Positions 921-23,072 of a DNA stretch of 64,000 nucleotides are shown one piece after another. Position 1 is the first letter of the stretch, and each line of letters opens with the position of its first letter. The stretch is taken from the NCBI GenBank assembly GCA_035577985.1, contig DATJZY010000042.1:62001-126000 (forward strand). The letters are read 5' to 3'. The position numbers were made by a program, and so were the translations under genes. The DNA comes from Candidatus Eisenbacteria bacterium. Its GTDB lineage: Bacteria > Desulfobacterota > Binatia > DP-6. The notes under the pieces are model-generated. The model saw nothing but the letters and a program-made list of their open reading frames with translations. It made no database searches and had not been told where the DNA came from.

Positions 921-1850
921 ATGACACCCGATCACACCGCCCTCATCCTGCATCAGTACGACACGTCGCCGTTCTCGGAGAAGATCCGCAAGGTGCTCGC
1001 GCACAAGCGCCTGGCGTGGTTCGCGGTCGAGCAGCCGAGCATCATGCCGAAGCCGGACCTCGTGCCGCTGACGGGCGGCTATCGCCGCATCCCGGTGCTG
1101 CAGATCGGCGCCGACGTGTACTGCGACTCGCAGCTGATCGCGCGCGTGCTGGAAGCGCGCCGGCCCGAGCCGACGATCTACCCCGGGCGCAGCGAAGCGA
1201 CCTGCCACGCCTGGAACCTGTGGGCGGACCGGCTCCTCTTCCTGCCGGTCGTGTCGGTCGTGTTCGCCGAGATCGGGGAGTTCGTCCCGAAGGCGTTCGT
1301 GGACGATCGGTCGCGCATGATGGCCGGACGCGACTTCGCCGAGATCTCGAAGCAGGCGCCCTACGCGCGCGACCAGCTCCGCGGCCTCGTGGCGACGCTC
1401 GACGCGCAGCTCGCCGACGGGCGGCCATTCGTCCTCGGCGATGCGTTCGGCCTGCCCGACGCCGCCTGCTACCACCCGCTGTGGTTCCTGCGCGTGGCCC
1501 CCGGCGCGCGTGACCTGCTGGCGCCCTTCGCCCACGTTGCTGCCTGGATGGGCCGCCTGGAGGCGATGGGCGACGGCGACAAGACCGTCGTCGCCCCCGC
1601 CGATGCGCTCGCGATCGCCCGCGCCGCGACGCCCGCCCCGGGAACCGTTGCGCCCGGGGAGCCGAACGGTCTCGCGGCCGGCGACGCCGTGAGCGTCACG
1701 CCGGACGACTACGGATTCGACCCGGTCGCCGGGACCCTGCACGCCGCCTCGGCGCACGAGGTGGCCGTACGGCGCATCGACCCCGCCCTGGGCGAGATCG
1801 TCGTCCACTTCCCGCGCGTCGGCTTCCGCCTGAGCGCGGTCAGTCGGTGA
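921..1850 (+). CDS. glutathione S-transferase family protein
   Basis: 309 residues. The N-terminal thioredoxin-like GST domain is seen in LHQYDTSPFSEKIRKVLAHK (the S/C-P-F-S/C active-site region), GGYRRIPVLQIG with the cis-Pro, and YCDSQLIARVLE, the glutathione gamma-glutamyl site with its Asp-Ser pair. A helical C-terminal GST domain follows to about residue 215. About 90 further residues, YGFDPVAGTLHAASAHEVAVRR onward, form an extra C-terminal segment of unknown role. The start is well supported by AAGGAGG before ATG. It is divergent from pyrR and ends convergent with, and overlapping by 11 bases, the cysteine-rich gene. The substrate cannot be told. Confidence 0.87.
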   Translation: MTPDHTALILHQYDTSPFSEKIRKVLAHKRLAWFAVEQPSIMPKPDLVPLTGGYRRIPVLQIGADVYCDSQLIARVLEARRPEPTIYPGRSEATCHAWNLWADRLLFLPVVSVVFAEIGEFVPKAFVDDRSRMMAGRDFAEISKQAPYARDQLRGLVATLDAQLADGRPFVLGDAFGLPDAACYHPLWFLRVAPGARDLLAPFAHVAAWMGRLEAMGDGDKTVVAPADALAIARAATPAPGTVAPGEPNGLAAGDAVSVTPDDYGFDPVAGTLHAASAHEVAVRRIDPALGEIVVHFPRVGFRLSAVSR

Positions 1851-3735
1851 CGACCTTCGAGGGGACGCAGAACTCCAGGCGGCGGGTGAGCGTGATCTCG
1901 AGCGGCCCGAACTGATTGTTCGTGAACGGGTGCATCGTGCCGAACGGATCGCGGTGGCGCGCCTTGTAGCAGACCAGGCTGTCCGGGTGGGACGGCGCCG
2001 TCGGGTCCTCGCCGTTCTTGTTGGCCGGCACGCAGAGGTAGCGCGGGCGCAGGACGTCCAGCGTGTGCGCCCCGAACTGGTCGACGGCGCTGACGCCCCG
2101 CTGCGGGACGAACTTCGCCGTGCCGCGGGTTCGCTTCACGGAGTAGCACTGGAAGTGGTCCGTCACCGGCGCCGCCAGCGGCGGCGTCGGACCCGACAGG
2201 CTCTTCGCCGTCGGGACCATGAGATAGGTCCGGCGGACGAGGTCGAGCGTCACCGTGCCGAACTGGTTCGTCACCGTCTGCGCCCCGATCCCCACCGGAC
2301 CGTTCGCGTCGGCATAGCCGAAGAGATGGTCCGGATCGGTCGCCGCGGTCGGATCCTCGCCGTTCTTGTCCGACGGCAGGCAGAACGGATGCGGCGTGCG
2401 GATCGGCAGCGTCGTCGTGCCGTAGCGATCCTGGATCGTCACGCCGGGGATCTTCGTGAACGCGAAGGGCTTCGTCTCGTAGCACTGGAAGTGGTTGAGG
2501 GGGAGGCACCCCAGCGTCGTGCTCGGCGTGTGGGTGCACCCCAGGAGGGCATCGCACGCGTCGATGGTGCACGCGTCCTCGTCGTCGCAGCGGGCGCTGT
2601 TGTCGACGAACTTGCACCCGTCGGTCGGGCTGCACGTGTCGTCGGTGCAGGCGTCGTCGTCGTTGCAGACGATGGGCGTGTGCGTGCATCCCGAGGCCGC
2701 CGCACACCCGTCGTCGGTGCAGGCGTCGTTGTCGTTGCAGTCGAGCTCGCTGGTCGTCTTGCAGGTGCCCGTCAGCGGATTGCAGGCTTCCGTCGTGCAG
2801 GCGTTGTTGTCGTCGCAGACGAGATCGATCGGCGGATACTCGCACTGCCCCGTCGCGGGATCGCAGACGTCGCGGGTGCAGAGGTCGTCGTCGCCGCAGG
2901 TGGGCGTCACGACGTCCGTGAACACGCACGCGCCGGTCGCCGAGTCGCACGAGTCGTCGGTGCAGGCGTTCTGGTCGTCGCAAGTCTTCGTGTCGAGGGT
3001 CTCGCATTTGCCCGTGGACGGGTTGCACGCCTCGGTCGTGCAGGCGTTGTTGTCGTCGCACGTCGTGGCGCCGGTCTGGGTGCACGCGCCCGTCTGCGGA
3101 TCGCAGACCTCCGTCGTGCACTTGTCGCCGTCGTCGCAGACGACGTCCGGATTGGAGCAGGCGGCCGAACCCGCCTTCGCCGGGTCACAGAGGTCCTGCG
3201 TGCACTTCTTCCCGTCGGCGCAGAGCAACACGGACGTCTTCTTCTGCATCGGGAACGAGCCGAGCGGCGTGTCGACCTCGCCATCGTGGAGGACGCCGCC
3301 GCTGTAGGTGGCCGTCGCCGTGATGAGGCCGCCGACGACGTCGGCCAGACTGACCGTGTACGGGATGAGCCCGCTCGTGACGTTCACCGTCGAGGGGTCG
3401 CACGGGGACAGCGTCCCGCCGACGCACGGCACGCTCGGGCTCACGACGACCGAAGTCCCGTTCGGCAGCGTCATCGTGAACGCGCCGCCTTCGAAGGCGC
3501 AGCTGCCAGCCGACGATTTGTGAACGGACACCTGATAGAAGACGCTCTCGCACTCCGAGACGCCGCCGATGACGTTCGTCACGCCGTCGCCGCGGAACAC
3601 GCGCATGTCGATCGCCACGGGGGCCGGCGTGCAGCCCGGCGGATCGACATGAGCGCGCGCGGCCGGCGCGATGGCGAGCACGGCGAGGGCCGCAACCACC
3701 GCCCGCATGGCCGTCCTGCTGCGTCGTCGAGTCAT
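1840..3735 (-). CDS. secreted cysteine-rich CTDC-repeat protein with triple C-terminal repeat (paralogue A)
   Basis: A Sec signal peptide (MTRRRSRTAMRAVVAALAVL..., cleaved near ARA-H) supports the ATG at 3735 behind a G-rich Shine-Dalgarno; an open frame to 3822 would bury the signal. An N-terminal domain of about 150 residues follows. Then come nine tandem units of the form CxDxxxCTxDxCxxxxGxC, like the Dictyostelium CTDC repeat, with Asp/Asn-rich loops (CDDNNACTTEAC) that could bind calcium. The C-terminus has three repeats of about 75 residues built on HFQCY, DQFG and LCVPANKNGEDP. The second and third parts are shared with the gene at 21279-22832; the N-terminal domain is not. The function is unknown; extracellular or surface location is inferred. 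Confidence 0.8.
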   Translation of the reverse strand: MTRRRSRTAMRAVVAALAVLAIAPAARAHVDPPGCTPAPVAIDMRVFRGDGVTNVIGGVSECESVFYQVSVHKSSAGSCAFEGGAFTMTLPNGTSVVVSPSVPCVGGTLSPCDPSTVNVTSGLIPYTVSLADVVGGLITATATYSGGVLHDGEVDTPLGSFPMQKKTSVLLCADGKKCTQDLCDPAKAGSAACSNPDVVCDDGDKCTTEVCDPQTGACTQTGATTCDDNNACTTEACNPSTGKCETLDTKTCDDQNACTDDSCDSATGACVFTDVVTPTCGDDDLCTRDVCDPATGQCEYPPIDLVCDDNNACTTEACNPLTGTCKTTSELDCNDNDACTDDGCAAASGCTHTPIVCNDDDACTDDTCSPTDGCKFVDNSARCDDEDACTIDACDALLGCTHTPSTTLGCLPLNHFQCYETKPFAFTKIPGVTIQDRYGTTTLPIRTPHPFCLPSDKNGEDPTAATDPDHLFGYADANGPVGIGAQTVTNQFGTVTLDLVRRTYLMVPTAKSLSGPTPPLAAPVTDHFQCYSVKRTRGTAKFVPQRGVSAVDQFGAHTLDVLRPRYLCVPANKNGEDPTAPSHPDSLVCYKARHRDPFGTMHPFTNNQFGPLEITLTRRLEFCVPSKVVTD

Positions 3736-7173: not shown

Positions 7174-7668
7174 ATGTCGAAGAACGTCGCAACCGAAGCC
7201 GCAGCGGCACTCGAGCAGACCCAGGACGCACGCGACCCGGGACCGCGCCCGCGCGACCCCGAGATCCTCGCCGAGCTCTTCGCGCCCGAAGTGGTGCTGC
7301 CCGAGCAGCTGACACAGGGCTATCGTCGCGACAGCTACGTCTCCGGTGAGAAGGCCCTCATGCTCGCCGTCCTCGAGGACGGCATCCGCTGCTTCCAGGA
7401 GCATCTCACGAACCCGCGCTCCAACCCGCGGCTGCTGTCGAAGCAGGCCGAGGAGTGGATCCGCGCGGTCGACTACGAGTGGCCCTTCTCGTTCAACAAC
7501 GTGTGCGAGACGCTCGGCATCGATCCCGAAGCGCTGCGCGAGAAGCTCGTCACGTGGAAGGCGCAGCGGATCGCGTCGATGGAAACCGCCAACGGCGGCC
7601 CGACGCCGGCCGAGAAGAAGGTCTACCGCCTCCACCTGCGCACCAAGCGCACGAGCGGCGTTCGGTAA
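7174..7668 (+). CDS. conserved hypothetical protein
   Basis: 164 residues from the ATG at 7174, which has GGAGGG seven bases upstream; an open frame from 7036 has no such site. The segment AVLEDGIRCFQEHL...AEEWIRAVDYEWPFSFNNVCETLGIDP...LREKLVTW resembles a small soluble protein of unknown function that I recall as widespread in deltaproteobacterial and Nitrospira-like genomes (pattern W-I...W-P-F-S-F-x-N-[IV]-C-E-x-L-G-[IL]-D-P). The C-terminus is basic. The LGIDPEALREKL stretch looks like a helix-turn-helix half, but nothing proves DNA binding. It stands alone on the plus strand and is followed by a hairpin. Confidence 0.75.
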   Translation: MSKNVATEAAAALEQTQDARDPGPRPRDPEILAELFAPEVVLPEQLTQGYRRDSYVSGEKALMLAVLEDGIRCFQEHLTNPRSNPRLLSKQAEEWIRAVDYEWPFSFNNVCETLGIDPEALREKLVTWKAQRIASMETANGGPTPAEKKVYRLHLRTKRTSGVR

Positions 7669-7670
7669 CT

Positions 7671-7692
7671 CCAGCCCGAGCTACCGGGCTGG
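7671..7692 (+). terminator. hairpin after the 7174-7668 gene
   Basis: CCAGCCCG and CGGGCTGG pair around a six-base loop, three bases past the stop codon. No T-run follows, so it is a GC-type terminator or 3'-end stabiliser. Confidence 0.5.
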
Positions 7693-7719
7693 GATCGGAC
7701 GCGTAGGCCGCCGCGCTCT

Positions 7720-7776
7720 GCTACGCGCGGGCGGCATGTCGCGGCCGGCTAAGCCGGCGCGACAACGCTAGTACGC
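7720..7776 (-). repeat. REP-like hairpin repeat, copy 1 (inverted)
   Basis: 57-base element whose core hairpin is at 7737-7764. In minus orientation it runs GCGTACTAG..., stem TGTCGCG, CCGGC, loop TTA, GCCGG, a bulged C, CGCGACA, then TGCCG...GCGCGT. It matches copies 2 and 3 in length and order, with paired base changes in the stem. It points opposite to copy 2, 80 bases away. The 7777-7856 spacer holds nothing recognisable. Confidence 0.7.
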
Positions 7777-7856
7777 CTGAGCCGCGTGTTTGCGCGCGAC
7801 GTGCTCCGATCCTGCGACACCGCGACGGTCGATTTCCGCGGCATCCGGGAAGCCGC

Positions 7857-7961
7857 GCGTACCTAGTATGGCGCGCCGGCTTTGCCGGCCGCGCCATGCC
7901 GATCGCACGTACCACCGACGCTACACCCTCGCCCCCGACCCAAGACGAAGTCTTGGGTCGG
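7857..7961 (+). repeat. REP-like composite repeat, copy 2 (hairpin plus 12-bp-stem hairpin)
   Basis: The first part, 7857-7913, is the 57-base REP-like unit (hairpin 7868-7897, loop TTT). The second part, 7914-7961, ends in a perfect 12-bp stem (CCGACCCAAGAC, 7935-7946, with 7950-7961). The same two-part arrangement occurs at 22958-23068. Both copies lie just past the 3' end of a minus-strand operon. Confidence 0.72.
7935..7961 (-). terminator. hairpin terminator of the thrS-ihfA operon
   Basis: Perfect 12-bp stem with a three-base loop, beginning two bases after the ihfA stop codon. The stem is identical to the one after lepB (23042-23068). There is no U-tract, so termination without Rho is uncertain. 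Confidence 0.6.
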
Positions 7962-7963
7962 AG

Positions 7964-8281
7964 TCATTCGTCTGCGGCGGTGTCGGCGGCGGTGACGGCT
8001 TCGCCGTTCATCGTCTTCTTCAGGACCTGGCTGGCCTTGAAGGAGAGGACCTTGCGGCCGCTGATGATGATCTCTTCGCCGGTCTGGGGATTGCGGCCTT
8101 TGCGGGGGCGCTTTTCGTGGACGATGAAGTTGCCGAAGCCGGAGATCTTCACCTTGCGGCCCTGCTCGAGGCATCGCTTCACGATCTCGAAGACCGACTC
8201 GACGACGTCCGTCGCTTCCTTCTTCGAGAACCCGATCTTCTCGTGGATCCGCTCGACGATGTCCGCTTTGGTCGTCGTCAT
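7964..8281 (-). CDS. ihfA: integration host factor alpha subunit (HU/IHF family)
   Basis: 105 residues. MTTTKADIVERIHEKIGFSKKEATDVVESVFEIVK and GRKVKISGFGNFIVHEKRPRKGRNPQTGE carry the HU/IHF fold and its DNA-minor-groove arm (RxxRxGRNPxTGE). Its place directly after pheT, as in enterobacteria, favours IHF-alpha over HU. It bends DNA at specific sites with a beta subunit not seen here. The ATG at 8281 abuts the pheT stop (8283); a longer open frame inside pheT is not coding. Confidence 0.93.
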   Translation of the reverse strand: MTTTKADIVERIHEKIGFSKKEATDVVESVFEIVKRCLEQGRKVKISGFGNFIVHEKRPRKGRNPQTGEEIIISGRKVLSFKASQVLKKTMNGEAVTAADTAADE

Positions 8282-8282
8282 G

Positions 8283-10694
8283 TCAGCTCCGGAGTTCGAG
8301 CGCGAAGCGGGCGGCGAGGTGCGCGCGTACCCGTCCGTGCGTGGCATTGACCTCCTCGTCGGTGAGAGTCCGATCGGGGTGGCGATACGCGATCGAGTAC
8401 GCGAGGCTCTTCTTGCCCTCGGGGATCGGCGTTCCCCGATAGCAGTCGAAGCAGCGGGCTGACTCGATGAGCGGGTCTCTCAACGCGCGGATCTCCTCCA
8501 GGATCGACTCGCTCGCAAAGGCCTCCTCAACGATCACGGCGATGTCGCGGCTGACGGCCGGGAAGCGCGGAACCGGCCGGAGCCCGACGCGGCGCGGACG
8601 ATAGTGAGCGACTTCCTCGAAGTCAAGCTCACAGATGAGCACTTCCCCTGCAAGATCGAGGGCCTGCACGACCCTGGGATCGAGCGCGCCGACGACGCCC
8701 AGGACCCGCTCGCCGTCGGCGATCGCGGCGGTCTTGCCGGGGTGGAGGAATCCGGACACCCGGTGCGGCCGCCAGCGCAGGGCGTCGGGATCGGCGCCGA
8801 GTCCGACGAGCACGTTGCCGACGATGCCCTTCAGATCCAGGAACTCGACCTGGGGGCCGCTGCGCTCCGCGCCCATCGGCGGCCAGAGGCCGTGCAGCAC
8901 GATCGACACGGCGCGCCGCTCCTGCCGTCCCCCGGGTCCGGCGCCGAATCCCTTGCCGATCTCGAACGCCGCCACGAACGAAGCACCGTTCGCGACGTTC
9001 AGGTGCAGGGCGCGCAGCAGCCCAGCCAGCGGCGAGCGGCGCAGCTCGCCGAGATCGCCCGACAGCGGGTTGCGGAGCGCGATCGGTTCCAGACCGGCGA
9101 GGACGTGGCCCGGCACGCGCTCGTTCGTCGCGTGATCGGTGAAGGCGAGCGTCACCATCTCGGTGAGACCCTCGGCGACGAGCGCGGTGCGGAGGCGGCG
9201 GGAGAAGCTCCGCGAGGCGCTGTCCGACCCGCAGGTCATGGGGACGGCCGGCAGCGTCGTCGGGATGGTTTCGTATCCGCCGAGGCGCGCGATCTCCTCG
9301 ATCACGTCCTCCTCGATGCGAAGATCGCCGCGATGGCTCGGCGGCGCGACGACCAGCACCGGTCCCTCGCCCGAGCAGGCCGCGCCGAGCGCGCGCAGCC
9401 GCCGCGTGACTTCCGCCTTCGGGGTCGCGACACCGAGGAGCGAGGCCGCGCGCGACGGCCGCAGCCGGATGGCCGGCGGATCGATGCCGGCGACGCTCCC
9501 CGTGTCGCGTACGATCCCCGGCGCCACGTTGCCGCCCGCCAGCCGCGCGATGAGCGCCGCGGCGACGTCGGCGGCCGGCTCGACCATTGCCGGATCGACG
9601 CGGCGCTCGAAGCGATACGCGGCCTGCGAGAGGAGACCCAGCCGGCGGGCCGTACGCCGCACGCTCGCCGGCGCGAAGAACGCGCTCTCCAGGAGGAGCG
9701 ACGTGGTCCCGCTCGTCACCTCCGAGTCTGCACCGCCCATCACGCCCGCGAGCGCGACCGGCCGGCGGCCGTCCGCGATCACCAGGTCGGATGGCTCGAG
9801 GACGCGCGCGACACCGTCGAGGGTCGTGAAGGCCTCGCCGGCCGACGCCCGCCGCACGATGATGTGCCCCCCCTCGACGCGCGAGAGGTCGAAGGCGTGC
9901 AGCGGCTGACCATGCTCCAGCATCACGAAGTTCGTCGCGTCGACGATGGCGTTGATCGGACGCATGCCGGCGCGCCGCAGGCGCAGGCGCACCCCGAGCG
10001 GCGACGGCACGATGCGCACGCCCCGGACGACGCGCGCGCAGTACTCGGCGCAGAGGTCGCGGGCGACGATCTCGACCGACACGGCGCTCGCGGCCGGCGG
10101 GCCGCTCTCGCGCAGACGCCCTCGGGGCATCCGCAGGCGCGCGCCGGTGAGCGCGGCCACCTCGCGCGCGACGCCGAGGACGGACAGGCAGTCGGCGCGG
10201 TTCGGCGTCACGTCGAGGACGAGCACGGTGTCGGCCACGCCGGGCAGCTCCGTCACGGGAGTCCCGAGCGGCGCGTCGGCGGGGAGGTCGAGCAGGCCCG
10301 AATCGTCGTCCCCGAGCCCGAGCTCGACCTCGGAGCAGAGCATCCCTTCCGACGCGACCCCGCGCAGGGTCGCCGCCCGGATCTCGGTGCCGGTCGCGAG
10401 CACCGCCCCGACGCGCGCGACGGGAACCCGGCGTCCCGGGCGGACGTCCGGCGCACCCGACACGACCGTGAGCGGCGTGTCGGCTCCCACGTCGACGCGA
10501 CACACCCGCAGCCGGTCGGCGTCCGGATGCGCCTCGACGGCCGCGATCCGGCCGACGACGACCCGCGGATCGATGCGACCGACGGGCTCGAGCCCCTCGG
10601 CGACCAGACCCGCCATGGTGAGGCGATCGGCGAGCGCCGCGGGCGAGAGGTCCACGGCCACGAACTCGCGCAGCCAGTCGAGCGGGATCCGCAT
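8283..10694 (-). CDS. pheT: phenylalanyl-tRNA synthetase beta subunit
   Basis: 803 residues, normal for PheT. In order: the N-terminal MRIPLDWLREFV signature, an EMAP-II-like tRNA-binding domain (VVVGRIAAVEAHPDADRLRVC), the B3/B4 editing module (NAIVDATNFVMLEHGQPLHAFD), the B5 domain, the catalytic-like core and a C-terminal ferredoxin-fold anticodon-binding domain (RPVPRFPAVSRDIAVIV). With PheS it charges tRNA-Phe. The ATG overlaps the pheS stop (ATGA), fixing the start and indicating coupling. Confidence 0.97.
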   Translation of the reverse strand: MRIPLDWLREFVAVDLSPAALADRLTMAGLVAEGLEPVGRIDPRVVVGRIAAVEAHPDADRLRVCRVDVGADTPLTVVSGAPDVRPGRRVPVARVGAVLATGTEIRAATLRGVASEGMLCSEVELGLGDDDSGLLDLPADAPLGTPVTELPGVADTVLVLDVTPNRADCLSVLGVAREVAALTGARLRMPRGRLRESGPPAASAVSVEIVARDLCAEYCARVVRGVRIVPSPLGVRLRLRRAGMRPINAIVDATNFVMLEHGQPLHAFDLSRVEGGHIIVRRASAGEAFTTLDGVARVLEPSDLVIADGRRPVALAGVMGGADSEVTSGTTSLLLESAFFAPASVRRTARRLGLLSQAAYRFERRVDPAMVEPAADVAAALIARLAGGNVAPGIVRDTGSVAGIDPPAIRLRPSRAASLLGVATPKAEVTRRLRALGAACSGEGPVLVVAPPSHRGDLRIEEDVIEEIARLGGYETIPTTLPAVPMTCGSDSASRSFSRRLRTALVAEGLTEMVTLAFTDHATNERVPGHVLAGLEPIALRNPLSGDLGELRRSPLAGLLRALHLNVANGASFVAAFEIGKGFGAGPGGRQERRAVSIVLHGLWPPMGAERSGPQVEFLDLKGIVGNVLVGLGADPDALRWRPHRVSGFLHPGKTAAIADGERVLGVVGALDPRVVQALDLAGEVLICELDFEEVAHYRPRRVGLRPVPRFPAVSRDIAVIVEEAFASESILEEIRALRDPLIESARCFDCYRGTPIPEGKKSLAYSIAYRHPDRTLTDEEVNATHGRVRAHLAARFALELRS

Positions 10695-11737
10695 CAGAAC
10701 TGTCCGAGAAAGCGCAGGTCGTTGTCGTAGAACAGGCGCAGGTCGTCGAGCCCGAGGCGCAGCAGCAACGGCCGGTCGATCCCCATGCCGAAGGCGAAGC
10801 CGCGCACGCGCTCGGGATCGTAGTCGACCGCTCGGAGGACGTTCGGGTGGACCATCCCGCACCCGAGGATCTCGAGCCAGCCGGATCCCTTGCACACCCG
10901 GCACGAGGGATCGGCGCCGCGGGTCGCGCGCGCGCACCGCACGCACCCGATATCGAGCTCGCCCGACGGCTCGGTGAACGGAAAGAAGCTCGGCCGGAAG
11001 CGCACGGGCGTCGCCGAGCCGAACAGGCGGCGGACGAACTGCACGAGCACGCCCTTCAAGTCGGCGAACGTCACGCGGTCGTCGATCATGAGCCCCTCGA
11101 CCTGCTGGAACATGGGCGAATGGGTCGCGTCCGGGTCGTCGCGCCGGTAGACGGTGCCCGGCACGATCACGCGCAGCGGCGGGCGCATCGCCCGCATGGC
11201 CCGGATCTGCACGGGCGAGGTGTGCGTGCGCAGCAGCAGGTCGTCCGCGCCCGCGACGTAGATCGTGTCCTGCATGTCGCGCGCGGGGTGATCGGGCGGG
11301 ATGTTGAGGGCCCCGAAGTTGTGGAAGTCGTCCTCGATCTCCGGACCCTCGACGACCTCGAACCCCATGGCGACGAAGATGTCGACGATCTCGTCCTCCA
11401 CGGCGCGCAGCGGATGGACGTGCCCGCGCGGCCGTGCGCGACCCGGCATGGTGACGTCGATGCGCTCCTCGGCGAGCCGGCGCGCGAGCTCCGCCTCCCG
11501 GAACTGCCACTGCCGCCGATTGAGCGCCTCCCGGACGATCCCATCGATGTCGTTGGCGAGCGCGCCCATCGCCGGGCGCTCCTCGGCCGGGAGCTGTCCC
11601 AAGCCCCGCAACAGCGCGCTGAGTGAGCCCTTGCGGCCGAGGTACTTGAGCCGGATCGCCTCGAGCGCGTCGTCGCTCTCGGCGGCGGCGATTTCCGCCA
11701 GGGCCGTCTCGCGTATCTCCGCGAGCGCGGCGCGCAC
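10694..11737 (-). CDS. pheS: phenylalanyl-tRNA synthetase alpha subunit
   Basis: 347 residues, standard PheS. An N-terminal coiled coil (to about residue 90) precedes the class II catalytic core with motif 2 (VYRRDDPDATHSPMFQQVEG) and motif 3 (GFAFGMGIDRPLLLRLG). A CxxC...CxxC knuckle (CVRCARATRGADPSCRVC) is present in the insertion, as in many bacterial PheS. The start is GTG, three bases after the rplT stop. Confidence 0.97.
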   Translation of the reverse strand: MRAALAEIRETALAEIAAAESDDALEAIRLKYLGRKGSLSALLRGLGQLPAEERPAMGALANDIDGIVREALNRRQWQFREAELARRLAEERIDVTMPGRARPRGHVHPLRAVEDEIVDIFVAMGFEVVEGPEIEDDFHNFGALNIPPDHPARDMQDTIYVAGADDLLLRTHTSPVQIRAMRAMRPPLRVIVPGTVYRRDDPDATHSPMFQQVEGLMIDDRVTFADLKGVLVQFVRRLFGSATPVRFRPSFFPFTEPSGELDIGCVRCARATRGADPSCRVCKGSGWLEILGCGMVHPNVLRAVDYDPERVRGFAFGMGIDRPLLLRLGLDDLRLFYDNDLRFLGQF

Positions 11738-11740
11738 GGG

Positions 11741-12100
11741 CTACGCCGTCGCCTGGCTCTTTGCGAGCGCCGCGAGCTCGCCGAACGCCTGCGGATCGTC
11801 GAGCGCGAGCGCCGCGAGCATCTTGCGATCGACCTCGACCGCCGCCTTCTTCAAGCCGGCGATCAGCCGGCTGTACGAGAGGCCGTGCTTGCGGGCCGCG
11901 GCGTTGATCCGCACGATCCAGAGGCCCCGGAAGTCGCGCTTCTTCTGCTTGCGGTCGCGGTAGGCGTAGGTGAGGCCGCGCTCGACGGTCTCGCGAGCCT
12001 GGCGATAGGTCTTGCGCCGGCCACCGACGTAGCCCTTCGCCATCTTCATGGTCTTCTTGTGGCGGCGGCGCGTCTTCGGGCCGCCTTTCGCGCGTGGCAT
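11741..12100 (-). CDS. rplT: 50S ribosomal protein L20
   Basis: 119 residues, the exact family length. The [24 protein letters not shown]-like basic N-terminus and the core [22 protein letters not shown]-type segment are unmistakable. It assembles early on 23S rRNA and in many bacteria represses its own operon by binding rpmI-rplT mRNA. AAGGAG precedes the ATG. It sits between rpmI and pheS, the classical order. Confidence 0.98.
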
Positions 12101-12118
12101 GATTCGCTCCTTGGGCGC

Positions 12119-12319
12119 TCAGCAGCCGTACGGCAGCAGGCGCTTGATCGACTTCTCGTCGGCTGGGTTCACGAGCCCCGCGCGGCGGAGGTGCCGCTTC
12201 TGCTTGCGGGTCTTCGAGCTGAGGATGTGCCGCTTGAATCCCTTGTGTCGCTTCACTTTTCCCTTGGCCGTGAAGGTGAACCGCTTGGCGGCCCCTCGGC
12301 GGGTCTTGAGCTTGGGCAT
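12119..12319 (-). CDS. rpmI: 50S ribosomal protein L35
   Basis: 66 residues, full length. MPKLKTRRGAAKRFTFTAKG and KRHLRRAGLVNPADEKSIKR-type ending match the family throughout. AAAGGA lies upstream of the ATG at 12319; longer in-frame extensions only shadow infC. The gene lies 14 bases after infC and 18 bases before rplT. Confidence 0.97.
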   Translation of the reverse strand: MPKLKTRRGAAKRFTFTAKGKVKRHKGFKRHILSSKTRKQKRHLRRAGLVNPADEKSIKRLLPYGC

Positions 12320-12333
12320 GGGTCTGGTCCTTT

Positions 12334-12849
12334 CTACTTCGCGACGAGCATCATCGACATGCTGCGACCTTCCATCCGCGCGGACTGCTCGATGACGGCG
12401 ATGTCGGTGAGCATCCCCGCGACCCGGTTGAGCATCACGTGCCCGAGCTCCGGGTGCGTGATCTGCCGGCCCCGGAAGAAGACCGTCACCTTTACCCGAT
12501 GTCCCTCGCCGAGGAAATCCCGGATGTGGTTCACCTTGAAGTCGACGTCGTGCTGGCTGGTCTGCGAGCCCATCTTCACTTCCTTCAGCTGGCTCGCGGC
12601 CCCTTTCTTGCGCGACTCCTGGGCCTTCTTCTTCTGCGCGTACCGGAACTTCCCGTAGTCCATGATCCGGCACACCGGCGGGTTCGCGGTGGGCGCGACC
12701 TCCACGAGGTCGAGCTCCTTCTGATCGGCGATGCGCTGCGCGTCCTGCGGCGTCATGACGCCCAGCTGCGCACCGTCCGCGTCGATCACCCGGATCTCGC
12801 GTGACCGGATCTGATGGTTGATCCGAACCTTCTCTTCGACTTTCGCTAT
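12334..12849 (-). CDS. infC: translation initiation factor IF-3 (apparent AUA start)
   Basis: 171 residues, normal IF-3. AKVEEKVRINHQIRSREIRV begins the N-domain. The linker and C-domain follow (GQITHPELGH-like, IEQSARMEGRSMSMMLV). No ATG, GTG or TTG lies at the expected N-terminus. The reading begins at ATA (12849-12847), six bases after AGGAGG, and overlaps the TAG stop of thrS. IF-3 genes commonly use rare AUU/AUC/AUA starts for self-control because IF-3 discriminates against them. IF-3 prevents premature subunit joining and checks the initiator tRNA. The start codon is inferred from the Shine-Dalgarno and alignment. Confidence 0.95.
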   Translation of the reverse strand: MAKVEEKVRINHQIRSREIRVIDADGAQLGVMTPQDAQRIADQKELDLVEVAPTANPPVCRIMDYGKFRYAQKKKAQESRKKGAASQLKEVKMGSQTSQHDVDFKVNHIRDFLGEGHRVKVTVFFRGRQITHPELGHVMLNRVAGMLTDIAVIEQSARMEGRSMSMMLVAK

Positions 12850-14795
12850 GACCCACCTCCTGGCATGCGCGCGTCGGTCGCGACGCGCGTGACGAACGCG
12901 TCGAGCCCGACGGCGGGCTCGTTGTTCCCTCCGACCCGCGGTGCGACCGTGCCGTCCGCCGCCTCGCGCTCGCCGATGACGGCCATGACGGGGACCTTCG
13001 CCACCTGCGCCTCGCGGATCTTGTAGCCGAGTTTCTCGCCGCGCAGATCGGACTCGGCGCGCAGCCCCGCGGCGCGGCAGGCCGCCTCCACGCGTCGCGC
13101 GTACGCTTCGACCTTCTCGCTGACCGGGATCACGCGGACCTGCTCGGGCGCGAGCCAGAGCGGCAGCTTGCCGTTCGTGTGCTCGAGCAGGATCGCGATG
13201 AACCGTTCGAGCGAGCCCAGGACCGCGCGGTGCACCATCATGGGCGTCGCCTCGGTGCCGTCGGACGTGACGTAGCGCAGGCCGAAGCGCTCCGGCATGG
13301 CGCAATCGATCTGCACCGTGGCGAGCGTCCACGACCGCTCCAGCACGTCGCGGAAGTCGAAGCCGATCTTGGGACCGTAGAAGGCGCCCTCGCCCGGCAG
13401 GACCGTCGTCGGATAGCCGGTCTTCTCGGCCGCCCGGTGGAGCGTGGCCTCGGCCGTGTCCCACAGCTCGACCCGCCCGAGGAAGTTCTTCGGGCGCGTC
13501 TGGACGGACACCTCGACGCGATCGAAGCCGAAGGCGGCGTAGACCTCCTTCACCATGGCGACGAACGCGTCGATCTCGCCGTCGACCTGGTCCGGCGTGC
13601 AGTAGATGTGCGCGTCGTCCTGCGCGAGCGAGCGCACGCGCGTGAGCCCCTGCAGCGTGCCCGACGGCTCGAAGCGATGCAGGCGGCTGAAGTCGGCGTA
13701 GCGGATCGGGAGATCGCGGTAGGAGTGCTTGTGGGCCGCGAAGAGCTCGCAGTGCCCCGGGCAGTTCATCGGCTTCACTCCGTACTCGTCCTCGTCGACC
13801 TTCATGAGGAACATGTCCTCCCGGAAGGCGCCGTAGTGGCCCGATTTCTTCCAGAGCTCGGTCTTGAAGATGAGCGGCGTGATCACCTCGGTGTAGCCGT
13901 AGCGGGCATAGAGCCGGCGGACGTACTCGACCAGCATGTTGTAGACGATGGCGCCCTTCGGATGGAAGAACGGGGAGCCCGGGGCGAGCGGGTTGAACGA
14001 GAAGAGATCGAGCACCTGGCCGAGGCGGCGGTGATCGCGTTGCTTCGCCTCCTCGACGCGCCTCAGATACGCGTCGAGGTCCTGCTTGGTCGCCCACGCC
14101 GTGCCGTAGAGGCGCTGGAGCTGCTCGTTGTTCGCGTCGCCGCGCCAGTAGGCGCCGGCGATGCTGGTCAGCTTGAAGGCGTCCAGCCGGCCCGTCGACG
14201 GCACGTGGGGCCCGCGACAGAGGTCCACGAAGTCGCCCTGGCGATAGAGCGAGATCGGCTCGCCGGCGGGAAGGCCCTCGATGATCTCGACCTTGTACTT
14301 CTGCCCCATGTCGCGGAAGAGGCGGATCGCGTCGTCGCGCGTCACCTCCTCGCGCACGACCGGGTGGTTCTCGCGCGCGATCTTCCGCATCTCGTCCTCG
14401 ATGAGCGCGAGATCCTCTGGCGTGAACCCCTCGGGCCGCTTCACGTCGTAGTAGAAGCCGTTCTCGACCACGGGCCCGATCGTGATCTCGGTGCCGGGGT
14501 AGAGCCGCGTGATGGCGTGCGCCATCAGGTGCGCCGACGAGTGGCGCAGGACCTCCAGCCCATCGGGGCTGTCGGGGACGACCGGCGTCACCCGGCAGTC
14601 CTGCGTGAGCGCGCGACCGAGGTCGACGATGCGCGTCGCGCCGTCCGCCTCGACCTTGGCCGCGATGGCTCGCTTCAGCTCCTTGCGGCTGGTCCCGTTC
14701 TGCTCGCCGTGCGCTCGGAGCGCGTCGCCCGCCGTGACGCCCGCCGGCAGGCGCAGCGGTGCGCCCTCGGCGAAGGTGACGGTGATGTCAGACAT
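12846..14795 (-). CDS. thrS: threonyl-tRNA synthetase
   Basis: 649 residues. TGS domain at the N-terminus (ITVTFAEGAPLRLPAGVT), the SAD editing domain with SSAHLMAHA, then the class II core with its zinc cysteine in KPMNCPGHC and LTRVRSLAQDDAHIYC, and a C-terminal anticodon-binding domain (VRVIPVSEKVEAYARRV). It charges tRNA-Thr and edits Ser-tRNA-Thr. It lies 43 bases behind the tRNA-Val gene with no terminator seen between, and heads the translation operon. Confidence 0.98.
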   Translation of the reverse strand: MSDITVTFAEGAPLRLPAGVTAGDALRAHGEQNGTSRKELKRAIAAKVEADGATRIVDLGRALTQDCRVTPVVPDSPDGLEVLRHSSAHLMAHAITRLYPGTEITIGPVVENGFYYDVKRPEGFTPEDLALIEDEMRKIARENHPVVREEVTRDDAIRLFRDMGQKYKVEIIEGLPAGEPISLYRQGDFVDLCRGPHVPSTGRLDAFKLTSIAGAYWRGDANNEQLQRLYGTAWATKQDLDAYLRRVEEAKQRDHRRLGQVLDLFSFNPLAPGSPFFHPKGAIVYNMLVEYVRRLYARYGYTEVITPLIFKTELWKKSGHYGAFREDMFLMKVDEDEYGVKPMNCPGHCELFAAHKHSYRDLPIRYADFSRLHRFEPSGTLQGLTRVRSLAQDDAHIYCTPDQVDGEIDAFVAMVKEVYAAFGFDRVEVSVQTRPKNFLGRVELWDTAEATLHRAAEKTGYPTTVLPGEGAFYGPKIGFDFRDVLERSWTLATVQIDCAMPERFGLRYVTSDGTEATPMMVHRAVLGSLERFIAILLEHTNGKLPLWLAPEQVRVIPVSEKVEAYARRVEAACRAAGLRAESDLRGEKLGYKIREAQVAKVPVMAVIGEREAADGTVAPRVGGNNEPAVGLDAFVTRVATDARMPGGGS

Positions 14796-14838
14796 CAGGC
14801 GATTGCATGAGGGGGCGAGGTCGGGCGGACCATGAGAG

Positions 14839-14910
14839 TAGGCACGGGCGGGATTGAACCGCCGGCCTCTTCCGTGTCAAGGAAGCGCTCTTCCACTGAG
14901 CTACGTGCCT
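14839..14910 (-). tRNA. tRNA-Val (anticodon GAC)
   Basis: A 72-nt cloverleaf: acceptor AGGCACG/CGTGCCT with discriminator A, D stem GCTC/GAGC, anticodon stem CTTCC/GGAAG with loop TTGACAC (anticodon GAC), T stem GGCGG/CCGCC with TTCAATC loop. CCA is not encoded. It probably heads the same transcript as thrS. Confidence 0.96.
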
Positions 14911-14934
14911 GCGCAAGGTTTCGAAAAGCCGCCT

Positions 14935-14963
14935 CTCGTACCAACCGCCTTCTCCACTGTCAA
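14935..14963 (-). promoter_or_regulatory. promoter of tRNA-Val and probably the thrS operon
   Basis: A perfect TTGACA (14963-14958) and TACGAG (14940-14935) with 17-base spacing lie 24 bases upstream of the tRNA. No other promoter is seen before thrS. Confidence 0.65.
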
Positions 14964-15023
14964 GACAATCTCTTGAAAAGCCGCGAGCTTGTGGCGCTTC
15001 GCGGTCGCCAGTAGTCTCCGCGC

Positions 15024-16115
15024 GTGTCGCGGGAGCAACTGTTCGCGGCGTTCTTCTTCGCCGTCTTCGTGTTCCTGCTCTATCAGCTCGGTCTGTTCCT
15101 GGCACCGTTCTTCACGCCGCTCGTGTGGGCGACCATCCTGGCCCTCACCTTCTATCCCCTGACGACGCGGCTGACGCGACTCCTGCGCGGGAACCGGACG
15201 GCCGCGTCCCTGGTGCTCGTCCTGCTGGTCATCGCGGTCGTCGTGCTGCCGTCGATCTACCTCGGCGCCGCGATCGTCCGTCAGACCGCGAGCGCCTATC
15301 AGCAGGTGCAGGAGATGGCGACGAGCGGCCAGCTCTCTCGCCTGATCGACCAGGCACGGGAGTCGCGCCTCGGCCTCTTCTTCCAGCGCGTCACGGCGCC
15401 GTTCCACGACAAGGTCCAGCTCGATCCGGCCGCGCTGATCCTCACCGCCAGCAACTGGATCTCGCAGCAGATCCTCGGCCAGACGACGGCGCTCGCCCGC
15501 AACGCCCTCGTGACGCTCCTGAACCTCCTCCTCATGTTCGTCGCCCTGTTCTTCTTCTTCCGCGACGGCGAGCGCATGGCGACGCGGATCAGCGACCTCG
15601 TCCCCATGGCGCCCGAGCACAAGGACATCGTCTTCCGGCGGCTCTTCGACACGCTCACGGCGGTCGTGCAGAGCATGCTCATCACGGCCGTCGCTCAGGG
15701 CACGCTCGCCGGCATCGGCTACTGGCTCCTGACCGACATCCCGTACGCCCTCTTCCTCGCCTTTCTGACCGGCGTCGCCGCGTTCCTGCCGCTCGCCGGA
15801 CCCGCCTTCGTGTGGGGCTCGGTTGCGACCTACCTCGCGCTCATGGGCTTCCGGGGCCAGGCGATCGCGATCGCCATCTGGGGCGTCGTCCCCGTCAGCA
15901 CCGTCGACAACGTCATCAAGCCCCTCTTCATCGGCGGCCGCGCCCGCCTGCCGACCTTCCTCCTCCTCTTCGCCCTCCTCGGCGGCATCACCGTCTACGG
16001 CTTCCTCGGCGTCTTCCTGGCGCCGGTGATCCTCGCGACGCTCCTCGCCTTCACCGACATCTACCGCGAGCTCTACGCGACCGCGCCGCCGGACGCGGCG
16101 CGGGCCGACGGCTAG
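15024..16115 (+). CDS. AI-2E/PerM family permease
   Basis: 363 residues with about eight hydrophobic segments. The N-terminal pair LFAAFFFAVFVFLLYQLGLF and LVWATILALTFYPL, the central FFFFRDGERM and the C-terminal FLPLAGPAFVWGSVATYLAL / PLFIGGRARLPTFLLLFALLGGITVYG segments are the AI-2E (UPF0118) family pattern. Members export small solutes (AI-2, sodium antiport and others); the substrate here is unknown. The start is GTG at 15024. It is convergent with the nitronate monooxygenase across a long inverted repeat. Confidence 0.9.
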   Translation: MSREQLFAAFFFAVFVFLLYQLGLFLAPFFTPLVWATILALTFYPLTTRLTRLLRGNRTAASLVLVLLVIAVVVLPSIYLGAAIVRQTASAYQQVQEMATSGQLSRLIDQARESRLGLFFQRVTAPFHDKVQLDPAALILTASNWISQQILGQTTALARNALVTLLNLLLMFVALFFFFRDGERMATRISDLVPMAPEHKDIVFRRLFDTLTAVVQSMLITAVAQGTLAGIGYWLLTDIPYALFLAFLTGVAAFLPLAGPAFVWGSVATYLALMGFRGQAIAIAIWGVVPVSTVDNVIKPLFIGGRARLPTFLLLFALLGGITVYGFLGVFLAPVILATLLAFTDIYRELYATAPPDAARADG

Positions 16116-16131
16116 AACGACGCCGCGGAGC

Positions 16132-16269
16132 GTGGGTGCGGGAGGTCTGGGCCCGGGGCTTCGGCTTCGGCTCCGTCGCGCGACAGAACATACGCTACGT
16201 CACGGCCCAACATTTCGTCGCGCCGCTTCGCAGGCGCCTCCGCCCCGGGCCCAGACCTCCCGCACCCAC
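16132..16269. repeat. perfect 28-bp inverted repeat between convergent genes
   Basis: Arms 16132-16159 and 16242-16269 are fully complementary and enclose 82 bases. They fill the gap between convergent stops at 16115 and 16291. The repeat probably acts as a two-way terminator; the large loop is unusual. No gene is seen in it. Confidence 0.75.
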
Positions 16270-16290
16270 ACGGCACCGGCCGGCGGCCCG

Positions 16291-17283
16291 CTAGCGGGCC
16301 GCGAAGACGCCGCGGTCGAGCACCGCCTCGGCGCTCGTCACGATCTCGCGGAACACGTCGGCGGCGGGCGTGATCTCCTTGAAGGAGCCGACGCCCTGGC
16401 CGGCGGGCATGCAGGTGCGCTGCGGGTCCGCTTCGGGGTTCCAGTAGGCCATCACGTTGCGCTGCGAGGAGATCATGAGCTGCTCGGGGAAGCGCTTGAT
16501 CTTCGCCGGATCGGCTTCGTGCTCCATGATGTAGGGGTTTCGCAGCGAGCGGAGCGGCTTGCCCGAGTAGCACCGGGTGCGGATCGTCTGGTCCTGCTCG
16601 GCGTGCACGAGCGCCTCGCGATATTCGAGGGCGGCCGTGGCCTCGGGCGTGGCGATGAAGCGCGTGCCGATGACGGCGCCCTGTGCGCCGAGCGCCATGG
16701 CCGCAACGACGCCGCGGCCGTCGACGATGCCGCCGGCGGCGACCACGGGGATCTTCACGGCGTCGACCACCTGCGGCACGAGGGCCAATGTGCCGATCTC
16801 GCCGGTGTGTCCGCCGGCTTCCGTGCCCTGCGCCGCGACCACGTCGGCGCCCGCCTGCTCGGCGCGTCGCGCGTGCGCGACCTTGCCGGTCATCACCATG
16901 ATGGTCATGCCGTGGCGCTTCATCTCGCCCACGTGCTTCTCGGGGACCGCGAGCCCCGCCACGAAGATCTTCACGCCCTCGTCGTACAGGACGGGCAGAT
17001 AGGGCACGATCATCTCGGGGATCGGCGCCAGGAGATCGACGGCGAACGGCTTCTGCGTCAGCGCCTTCGTCTTGCGGATCTCGTCGCGCAGGCCGTCCGG
17101 CGCGAGGTTCGCCGCGCCCATGATGCCGAGGCCGCCCGCGTTCGAGACGGCGGCGACGAGCGGCGCCATCGACACGCCACCCATCCCGGCGAGCAGGATC
17201 GGATACTCGATCCCGAACAGGTCGCAGACAGGCGTACGGAGCCGCGAGTGGTGCGTCCCGTTTGACGTCGCGGGCGAGTGCAT
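16291..17283 (-). CDS. nitronate monooxygenase (2-nitropropane dioxygenase family)
   Basis: 330 residues from the ATG at 17283. An FMN-dependent TIM barrel: LFGIEYPILLAGMGGVSMAPLVAAVSNAGGLG at the start, GTEAGGHTGEIGT with the catalytic histidine, then GGIVDGRGVVAAMALGAQGAVIGTRFIATPE for FMN phosphate binding. It oxidises nitronates to carbonyls and nitrite, and close relatives include enoyl reductases. Longer in-frame starts would read into the divergent thiolase-like gene. It shares a 49-base intergenic region with that gene. Confidence 0.92.
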   Translation of the reverse strand: MHSPATSNGTHHSRLRTPVCDLFGIEYPILLAGMGGVSMAPLVAAVSNAGGLGIMGAANLAPDGLRDEIRKTKALTQKPFAVDLLAPIPEMIVPYLPVLYDEGVKIFVAGLAVPEKHVGEMKRHGMTIMVMTGKVAHARRAEQAGADVVAAQGTEAGGHTGEIGTLALVPQVVDAVKIPVVAAGGIVDGRGVVAAMALGAQGAVIGTRFIATPEATAALEYREALVHAEQDQTIRTRCYSGKPLRSLRNPYIMEHEADPAKIKRFPEQLMISSQRNVMAYWNPEADPQRTCMPAGQGVGSFKEITPAADVFREIVTSAEAVLDRGVFAAR

Positions 17284-17332
17284 GCGAGGGACTTTCGATG
17301 CCCATGCGTGGCGTGTCAAGGCGAGGGAGCGC

Positions 17333-18835
17333 ATGACGGCGCCGCAGCCCGTGCTGGTCGGCGCGGGCGAAGTCGTGGACAAGCCCGAGGACCCGATGCT
17401 CGGCCTGGAGCCGCTGGCGCTGATGGAGACCGCTGCGCGCCGCGCCTGCGACGACGCCGGTGGCGGAGCCGCCCTCCTCGCCCACGTCGACACCGTCGCC
17501 GTCGTCACCAACGTCTTCCACGACTACGGCGACACCGCGACGCTCCTGGCCGCTCGCCTGGGCTGCGGGCCGGGCCGCCGATTGGTCACGACCTGGGGCG
17601 GGAACACCCCGCAGTCGCTGACGAGCTTTCTGTGCGACGAGGTCGCGGCGGGACGCTGCGAGCTGGCCCTGGTCGCGGGCGCCGAAGCCGTCGGGACCCT
17701 GCGCGCGCTCGGCAAGCGCGGCATCGAGCCGGCATGGACGCCGCACCGCGCGACCGACGTCCCACGCTGGGGCGACATGCGCTCGGGCACGAGCGATCTC
17801 GAGTCGCGTCACGGCATGCGCGAGGCGTACGTCACCTTCGCGCTGGTGGAGAACGCATTCCGCGCCTCGCGCGGCCTCTCGCTCGACGACGCGCGGCGCG
17901 AGATCGGCGCCTTCGCGGAGCGCTGCACGCGCGTCGCCGCCGACAACCCGTACGCGTGGTTTCCGGAGGCGAAGGACGCGGCCACCCTCACGACGGCCAC
18001 GCCGTCCAACCGGATGGTGGCGTTCCCGTATCCGAAGTACCTGAACGCGATCATGGAGGTGAATCAGGGCGCGGCCCTGCTGGTCGCGAGCGACGCCGCC
18101 GCGCGGCGGCTCGGGATCACGCCCGACCGCTGGGTCCATCCGTGGGCCGCCGCCGACGTGACCGAGCAGTGGTACCTGTCCGAGCGCACGACGCTTCACG
18201 CGCTCGCCGGTACGCAGCGTGCGGCGGCCGCGCTCTTCGAGACGATCGGGCGCCACGCCGGCGACGTCACGCACCTGGACCTCTATAGCTGCTTCCCGAT
18301 CGCCCCGCGGCTGTCCGCGGCGACGATCGGCCTCGATCCCGGCACGACGCGCCCGCTCACCGTCACGGGCGGCCTGCCCTGGTTCGGCGGCCCGGGCAAC
18401 AACTACGGCACCCATGCGCTCGCGGCCATGATGCGCCTCCTGCGGCGCGACCGCGGCGCGACCGGCTTCCTGCACGGCCTCGGCTGGAGCTGCACCAAGC
18501 ACGCGCTCGCCGTCCTCGGCGGATCGCCGTCGCCGCAGGGCTGGAGGCGAGTCGACACCGGCGCGATCCAGGCCTGGGTCGACGCCCAACCCTCGCCCGA
18601 GGTCGTCGCGGAAGCCGACGGGCCCGGCACGATCGAGACGTACACCGTGGTTCACGGTCGCGACGGCGCACCCGAGCGCGGCGCGATCATCGGTCGCCTG
18701 CCGGATGCGAAGCGGTTCCTGGCGACGCTCGCCCCCGATCGCGACGCCTTCGCGGCGCTCGAAGCGAGCGAGGGCGTCGGCCGGCGCGGCACGGTGCGCG
18801 TCGAGGGCGGCCGCAACGTCTTCCACCTCGCCTGA
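17333..18835 (+). CDS. thiolase-like protein (TLP1/acetyl-CoA acetyltransferase superfamily)
   Basis: 500 residues from the ATG at 17333 behind GAGGGAGC. The thiolase fold is seen in PVLVGAGEVVDKPEDP, ELALVAGAEAVGTLRALGKRG, DLYSCFPIAPRLSAATIGL and the His motif GLGWSCTKHALAVLGG (about residue 386-398). The usual nucleophile-Cys segment is replaced by TTWGGNTPQSLTSF, without Cys. A C-terminal extension of about 100 residues (IETYTVVHGRDGAPERGAIIGRL) looks like the extra beta domain of mycobacterial TLP1. An acyl-CoA-binding or non-canonical role is inferred. The GH78-like gene starts six bases downstream, an odd pairing. Confidence 0.85.
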   Translation: MTAPQPVLVGAGEVVDKPEDPMLGLEPLALMETAARRACDDAGGGAALLAHVDTVAVVTNVFHDYGDTATLLAARLGCGPGRRLVTTWGGNTPQSLTSFLCDEVAAGRCELALVAGAEAVGTLRALGKRGIEPAWTPHRATDVPRWGDMRSGTSDLESRHGMREAYVTFALVENAFRASRGLSLDDARREIGAFAERCTRVAADNPYAWFPEAKDAATLTTATPSNRMVAFPYPKYLNAIMEVNQGAALLVASDAAARRLGITPDRWVHPWAAADVTEQWYLSERTTLHALAGTQRAAAALFETIGRHAGDVTHLDLYSCFPIAPRLSAATIGLDPGTTRPLTVTGGLPWFGGPGNNYGTHALAAMMRLLRRDRGATGFLHGLGWSCTKHALAVLGGSPSPQGWRRVDTGAIQAWVDAQPSPEVVAEADGPGTIETYTVVHGRDGAPERGAIIGRLPDAKRFLATLAPDRDAFAALEASEGVGRRGTVRVEGGRNVFHLA

Positions 18836-18841
18836 AACGCG

Positions 18842-21115: not shown

Positions 21116-21155
21116 CAAGTCCGGCCGCTGCGAGCCCGCGCGCACGGCGTCGCGT

Positions 21156-21241
21156 GCGGCTGCCGGGGCGGCCCGGGGGGTGCGCGCCGAACGATTATCG
21201 GGGAGCGAACGCGGGCACCCCCGGGCCGCGCCGGCAGCCGC
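21156..21241. repeat. 27-28-bp near-perfect inverted repeat between convergent genes
   Basis: Arms 21156-21183 and 21215-21241 pair with one mismatch and one indel around 31 bases. They lie between convergent stops at 21115 and 21279. It is a likely two-way terminator, like the one at 16132-16269 but unrelated in sequence. Confidence 0.7.
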
Positions 21242-21278
21242 GCACCCATCCCCCTCGCGCGGACGAGCCCGCCCGCCG

Positions 21279-22832: not shown

Positions 22833-22855
22833 GACCTGCTACCCCCTTGCGTCTC

Positions 22856-22892
22856 GACGGGACAAGAACACAGAGACACCCCGGCCGTAAAG
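22856..22892 (-). promoter_or_regulatory. conserved upstream block shared with the paralogue at 3735
   Basis: This block lies 23 bases before the start codon of paralogue B and matches 3754-3790 at 31 of 37 positions, including CTTTACG and TCTGTGTT-x-TTGTCCCGTC on the coding strand. See that entry. Confidence 0.5.
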
Positions 22893-22957
22893 GGGAATCG
22901 GGCTCCCGACCCACCGTGGACGCATCGGCGACGAGGTCCCACGCACCTGCGAAGCGA

Positions 22958-23068
22958 GCGTACCTCGCCTTGCCGCGCCAGCTTCGCTGGCCGCGGCATA
23001 CCGGTCGCGCGTGCCACGGACGCGACATTCTCGCGTCCTCCCCGACCCAAGACTTGGTCTTGGGTCGG
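22958..23068 (+). repeat. REP-like composite repeat, copy 3
   Basis: The first part, 22958-23015, is the REP-like unit (hairpin 22971-22998, loop TTC). The inner stem CCGGC/GCCGG of the other copies is CCAGC/GCTGG here, and the outer stem has paired changes as well. The second part ends in the 12-bp-stem hairpin 23042-23068, whose arms are identical to those of copy 2. Confidence 0.72.
23042..23068 (-). terminator. hairpin terminator of lepA-lepB
   Basis: A perfect 12-bp stem (CCGACCCAAGAC and its complement, loop of three) begins four bases past the lepB stop. It is the same stem as after ihfA. No U-tract is present. Confidence 0.6.
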
Positions 23069-23072
23069 CGCC

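Follow-up and report, generated by a model that had tools for sequence, protein, structure and literature searches.

Hairpin repeats at the 3′ ends of convergent genes as probable arms of a MITE-like element that duplicates CTAG

The hairpin repeats detected in a Candidatus Eisenbacteria genome are very probably the arms of a non-autonomous, MITE-like element, which would be moved in trans with CTAG cut and duplicated and whose arms lie at gene 3′ ends. A complete element comprises two inverted arms of ~105 nt around a core of 45–225 bp, each arm having an outer hairpin of 10–12 bp and an inner, REP-like hairpin. In the proposed mechanism, a trans-acting transposase would cut CTAG (in general probably YTAR) and duplicate those 4 bp. 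CTAG is rare in this G+C-rich DNA and concentrated at TAG stops, often where convergent genes overlap by CTAG; insertion there would provide each gene with a CTAG stop of its own and leave the element as shared 3′-flanking DNA, with hairpins predicted to form at the 3′ ends of both mRNAs.

Composites with two-hairpin arms

Three copies of a 57-base, REP-like hairpin had been annotated (7720–7776, 7857–7913, and 22958–23015) in the window, that is, the whole 64,000-nt stretch of DNA analyzed here (C42:62001-126000), and all three were recovered at, or a few bases from, these positions. The 57 bases are not the whole repeat, however: the sequence shared among the aligned copies extends far past them, and the real unit is about twice as long (105–116 nt), with a second hairpin beyond copies 2 and 3. 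This 12-bp hairpin (hairpin 1, CCGACCCAAGAC-nnn-GTCTTGGGTCGG), located 3′ of these two copies, occurs twice in the window compared with 0.00 expected by chance, and a diverged hairpin occupies the equivalent position in copy 1. Folding of the three regions, each in the orientation of its neighboring gene, gave z-scores of −5.6, −6.4, and −4.2 relative to dinucleotide shuffles. The back-to-back pairing of copies 1 and 2 held, but both are arms of a single composite (Table 1), matched by covariance model R1 at G000:C42:69671-69780(+) and 69853-69961(-).

Table 1. Features of the element and of adjacent genes in the window
Feature	Position	Strand	Basis
Whole composite: left arm, 72-bp core, and right arm, inverted, 291 bp	7671–7961	.	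Two R1 matches
Left arm, unit in gene sense (copy 1)	7671–7780	+	R1, 65.4 bits, E 1.1e-7
Left-arm hairpin 1, diverged, CCAGCCCG-agctac-CGGGCTGG; 2 nt past TAA stop (7666–7668)	7671–7692	+	Sequence, fold
Left-arm hairpin 2, REP-like, TGTCGCGGCCGGC-taa-GCCGGCGCGACA, one bulged G	7737–7764	+	Sequence, fold, covariation
Right arm, unit with gene sense on minus (copy 2)	7853–7961	-	R1, 123.8 bits, E 1.7e-17
Right-arm hairpin 2, TGGCGCGCCGGC-ttt-GCCGGCCGCGCCA	7869–7896	-	Sequence, fold, covariation
Right-arm hairpin 1, CCGACCCAAGAC-gaa-GTCTTGGGTCGG; 2 nt from stop of facing gene	7935–7961	-	Motif count, 0 expected
Third copy, single unit (copy 3)	22954–23068	-	R1, 124.9 bits
Third-copy hairpin 2, TGCCGCGCCAGC-ttc-GCTGGCCGCGGCA	22971–22998	-	Sequence, fold
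Third-copy hairpin 1; 4 nt past TAG stop (23075–23073) of gene 23073–23690(-)	23042–23068	-	Motif count, gene call
Left convergent gene; 66%–69% identity in relatives; stop TAA 7666–7668; start uncertain, ORF opens 7036	7174–7668	+	Gene call
Right convergent gene, IHF/HU-like (named by eye from sequence); stop TGA 7966–7964	7964–8347	-	ORF, gene call
Gene after third copy; start ~160 bp further on	21279–22796	-	Gene call

The stem changes reported for the three copies (third outer pair T-A, G-C, or C-G; inner CCGGC/GCCGG to CCAGC/GCTGG) are correct, and covariation of the stems survives on an alignment of 56 copies. In hairpin 2 of these copies, 99.6% of cells are paired and 38 are double-changed, at two pairs (GC:32/AU:22; CG:39/UA:14/GC:2), which are the same two pairs that had been named from the window. 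Hairpin 1 is 99.4% paired, with both-side changes at five pairs. Counting all pairs of the structure gave 62 double-changed cells versus 17 in shuffles, and pairing fell to 30%–40% in slid controls. The outer "bulged" stem drawn from the flanks fared poorly on the same copies, being only 83% paired and having no double changes. As for the initial view that the stems are under selection for structure, the paired changes are real, but template-switch correction in a DNA palindrome could also yield them, and 8 of the 12 hairpin-2 pairs are invariant, indicating that sequence is conserved as well. Template switching can produce such symmetrical changes, so the covariation does not prove an RNA function.

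Copy number and distribution

The expectation that a dispersed, structured repeat should have further copies in the genome was borne out by both blastn and the covariance approach. In the 5.7-Mb, 99.5%-complete assembly, ~49 full-length copies were detected by blastn with the longer unit, and 129 matches at E ≤ 0.01 with a covariance model built from the 56 copies; median pairwise identity among units of this genome is 80%. Three genomes of a sister genus in the same family carry at least 98, 57, and 46 copies, and three other members of the family carry 2, 2, and 0. No copies were found in 31 genomes from 13 other families of the class, and plasmid and viral collections had no match to the element. 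Within the range of genomes searched, it is thus restricted to a single bacterial family. Related records are labeled as Deltaproteobacteria MAGs, and their soil origin is our reading of sample names. The family of repeats is also a marker for a lineage of uncultured soil bacteria whose repeat biology we did not find described. At one locus of the source genome (L061, G000:C161:16600-19700), an IS481-type insertion sequence lies inside hairpin 2 of a unit, with unit pieces near 1524–1605 and 2890–2926 and a transposase at C161:18501-19370 scoring above the NCBIfam cut-off, so the repeat itself serves as an insertion target.

Recent spread and duplication of CTAG in relatives

Recent spread is evident in sister species. 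Near-identical 305-bp composites occur at unrelated loci in relative G005 (median identity 95%, 55 pairs), as do 337-bp composites in G002 (98%, 6 pairs, among the matches listed). In ~20 G005 composites, both ends carry the terminal inverted repeat GAGCGCGACCCAAGA. The ~105-nt arms of the element are related along their whole length. The insertions are polymorphic, near-identical copies are multiple, and no transposase gene lies inside them, as is characteristic of MITEs. CTAG adjoins ~15 of 17 left and 16 of 17 right ends at the G005 loci fetched. Among the matches listed for G002, 6 of ~18 composites have CTAG at both ends and about half are one-ended (A-end, 14/18; B-end, 7/18). Only ~3 of 22 composites in the source genome keep CTAG at both ends, which is expected if its copies are old (as judged from unit identity) or have been rearranged by recombination between copies.

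Searches with joined flanks located empty sites. The cleanest is the counterpart of L194 in G005, where GGCGGCTAG/GAG-element-CTC/CTAGCGCGG corresponds to GCCGCCTAGCGCGG in G006 (L213; slashes mark the element boundaries). The left junction in G005 reads GGCTAG/GAG, with the duplicated CTAG on either side of the element, and the single CTAG in G006 is the overlapping stop of both genes. The same pattern, with two CTAGs at the filled site and one at the empty site, was found for L192 versus L203 (G006). Two CTAGs at L111 (G002) correspond to one common CTAA at L128 (G006), and the empty site L124 (G006), matching L108:1539 (G002), has one CTAG. Another G002 composite (L108:5244-5653) is absent from both G005 (TAGGAGTCA, stops 3 bp apart) and G006 (TGATCA). 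Comparison of filled and empty sites thus shows, at the most precise sites, a 4-bp duplication of CTAG on insertion. In the sister species, the CTAG sites used are mostly gene stop codons. The empty site is frequently a pair of overlapping TAG stops from convergent genes, so this duplication leaves each gene with a stop of its own. The end asymmetry in G002 had prompted us to consider single-strand insertion 3′ of CTAG without duplication, which was set aside because almost every end in G005 carries CTAG and the empty sites have one.

Searching the sister genus with R1 gave no match at the window locus itself, and the window copies are old; by analogy with the relatives, they presumably arose by insertion in the same way. 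A solitary 36-bp palindrome in G005 (C94:55693-55728, AGGAGCGCGACCCAAGA..TCTTGGGTCGCGCTCCT) consists of the terminal hairpin alone with ends on both sides and is possibly a minimal or collapsed element.

Position at gene 3′ ends

The units are positioned at stop codons with little variation. Based on gene positions from a simple codon-based caller, the stop of the gene reading into the unit lies beside hairpin 1 in 71 of 75 units in the source genome, typically at 0–6 nt and most often at 4. Units that occur in pairs are invariably arranged back to back (minus-plus), mostly 45–225 bp apart, giving one unit per convergent gene, and the window composite likewise separates two convergent genes at their 3′ ends. 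The window convergent gaps without an element are tiny in three cases (−10, +4, and −4 bp) and ~160 bp in another; where gaps are so small, a composite inserted there cannot avoid touching both stops. However, units standing alone in tandem gaps are also placed at the stop codon. Of 64 stops adjacent to units, 49 are TAG and 36 have a YTAR context; for other genes, the figures are 50 and 26 of 134. CTAG is depleted in the stretches of this genome that were examined (93 seen, 592 expected), with 49 of the 93 at stops, a share that is inflated by the choice of stretches around units. The single units, nearly always with hairpin 1 toward the stop, require more than a palindromic target, namely arm loss or selection. 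At the right end of one G002 composite (L106, G002:C313), the right-hand gene seems by eye to read in frame through CTAG to a stop inside the arm, and the element thus appears to supply this gene with a new C-terminus.

This constancy is what would be expected if the repeat were instead a host 3′-end module, either a transcript end or an mRNA stabilizer, kept by selection and homogenized by gene conversion without transposition. The near-constant distance and single orientation, including those of single copies, and the covariation of both hairpins agree with such a module. So does the restricted loop of hairpin 1, a GNA triloop in 66 of 73 units of the source genome (UNC in gene sense) in which N varies freely. 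GNA triloops make very stable DNA mini-hairpins. Partner arms of the same composite in this genome are, moreover, more alike in hairpin 2 than arms of different composites (0.962 versus 0.898; 1/5000 shuffles, 14 pairs), with no such excess in hairpin 1. Against a module without transposition, orthologous sites within one genus differ in the presence or absence of the element, and the window locus is unmatched in the sister genus. There is also no U-tract terminator: no intrinsic (Rho-independent) terminator, defined as a stem-loop with a U-tract, was found in 7600–8000. An Rfam search of 7400–23300 at gathering scores returned only a tRNA. As a full explanation we consider the module unlikely, but as a secondary role of a transposed element it can be true; stop distance, orientation, the hairpin-1 loop, and arm likeness leave room for an mRNA 3′-end role or for gene conversion from arm to arm.

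Under transposition of a MITE-like element, the interpretation we favor, any effect on mRNA 3′ ends would come after insertion, and the element may act as an mRNA 3′ end in both directions. It is conceivable, although doubtful, that the CTAG duplication gives both convergent genes their stops and that the two-hairpin arms become working 3′ ends, making the insertion harmless and yielding a bidirectional transcript end that the host could adopt. The CTAG target, with a 4-bp duplication that leaves both convergent genes a TAG stop, offers a molecular reason for finding a small palindromic repeat at gene 3′ ends, whereas similar positions of REPs are usually ascribed to selection alone. If the same is true elsewhere, empty sites at YTAR stops would be a simple test for REP-like families without a known transposase.

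Mobilizing enzyme and comparison with known systems

CTAG-targeting miniatures and 3′-end palindromes are both already known (PMC3189936, PMC5493358, PMC3733652, PMC6794481), and our literature search turned up no family that combines arms of this two-hairpin kind or has such ends. IS5 duplicates Py-T-A-Pu, most commonly CTAG (PMC5493358), and MITEPsy1 of Pseudomonas syringae, a miniature linked to ISPsy2, targets CTAG/YTAA-YTAR and duplicates 4 nt (PMC3189936). The element described here resembles MITEPsy1 in lacking coding capacity and in its inverted ends, CTAG/YTAR target, and 4-nt duplication. It differs in size and anatomy (250–410 bp with ~105-nt two-hairpin arms and ends GAGSSCGACCC, compared with 100 nt and 18-nt ends GGAAGGTC...) and in its strong localization at convergent stop codons. 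IS5 and MITEPsy1 both typically duplicate a 4-bp YTAR target; our best guess for the mobilizing enzyme is a DDE, IS5-like transposase acting in trans. The YTAR target with a 4-bp duplication that typifies IS5 miniatures is seen here in the CTAG duplications of the sister genus and in the YTAR excess at unit-adjacent stops of the source genome. No autonomous copy was found in G005, where all 47 exact ends pair at ≤305 bp or stay unpaired.

REPs and BIMEs (GTAG and CGTC superfamilies) are palindromic, extragenic, high-copy repeats, often forming inverted dimers <20 bp from the 3′ ends of convergent ORFs; GTAG REP termini can supply a TAG stop, and CGTC REPs lack a dedicated transposase (PMC3733652). 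Our element shares the palindromes, copy number, extragenic location, and inverted dimers near convergent 3′ ends, which agree with a reading of each hairpin as a REP moved by a RAYT, an IS200/IS605-like Y1 transposase, and of head-to-head pairs as BIMEs. RAYT-like genes are also numerous in the sister genus in which the element is young; counting fragments, its three genomes gave 24, 13, and 13 hits. We nonetheless consider this very unlikely. REPs measure 20–40 bp, have a single hairpin, and bear a GTAG or CGTC tag, those with GTAG being tied to RAYTs, whereas the units here are 105 nt long with two hairpins, an untagged hairpin foot, and a CTAG duplication at filled sites in relatives. No conserved GTAG was present at the hairpin-2 foot in aligned units of the source genome, and GCGTC, although common in the linker, lies ~20 nt from hairpin 2. 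Y1 single-strand transposition, the IS200/IS605 mechanism, is not expected to yield a 4-bp target duplication. The initial annotation had noted that a RAYT-type transposase, if any, lies outside the window and had proposed looking for its gene, but the 99.5%-complete assembly contains no Y1_Tnp domain (PF01797) and no match to a family-specific RAYT profile.

Long inverted repeats with self-complementary tracts also characterize the TIR repeats of TIRtrons/TIRYT, which form dimers, some being a REP joined to another stem-loop (PMC3733652). The arms described here are similarly long, inverted, self-complementary, and dimeric. Those TIRs, however, flank Y1 transposase genes, whereas the 20 RAYT loci inspected in relatives have no unit within 1.5 kb. 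RAYT-like Y1 genes are multicopy in G002, G005, and G006 (L157–L182), without units nearby, and in one case (L198, G005:C92:60427) a composite is directly adjoined by the remnant of a RAYT C-terminus.

An IS481-family miniature is still less plausible, to the point of being largely refuted. This family targets CTAG, and in TnRErm46/IS481 the TAG within the duplication can act as the stop of the target gene (PMC6794481); nine hits to IS481-type transposases were obtained in the source genome. TnRErm46, however, is an autonomous DDE transposon with TGT ends and a 6-bp NCTAGN duplication. Here, the duplication is 4 bp, the fifth and sixth bases differing between sides, the termini are GAG..., and G005, despite ~20 young copies, has no NF033577 match.

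Integron attC sites, which also form hairpins just after stops, were rejected because the units are scattered across many contigs and stand tail to tail where convergent genes meet, with no cassette arrays. A DNA uptake sequence is unlikely; the count of 51 is for the paired palindrome, as distinct from single GACCCAAGAC sites. Elsewhere in the window, the genes at 1840–3708 and 21279–22796 are paralogous and contain many imperfect tandem units of 72–84 bp rich in cysteine codons (repeat families D1 and D3–D6).
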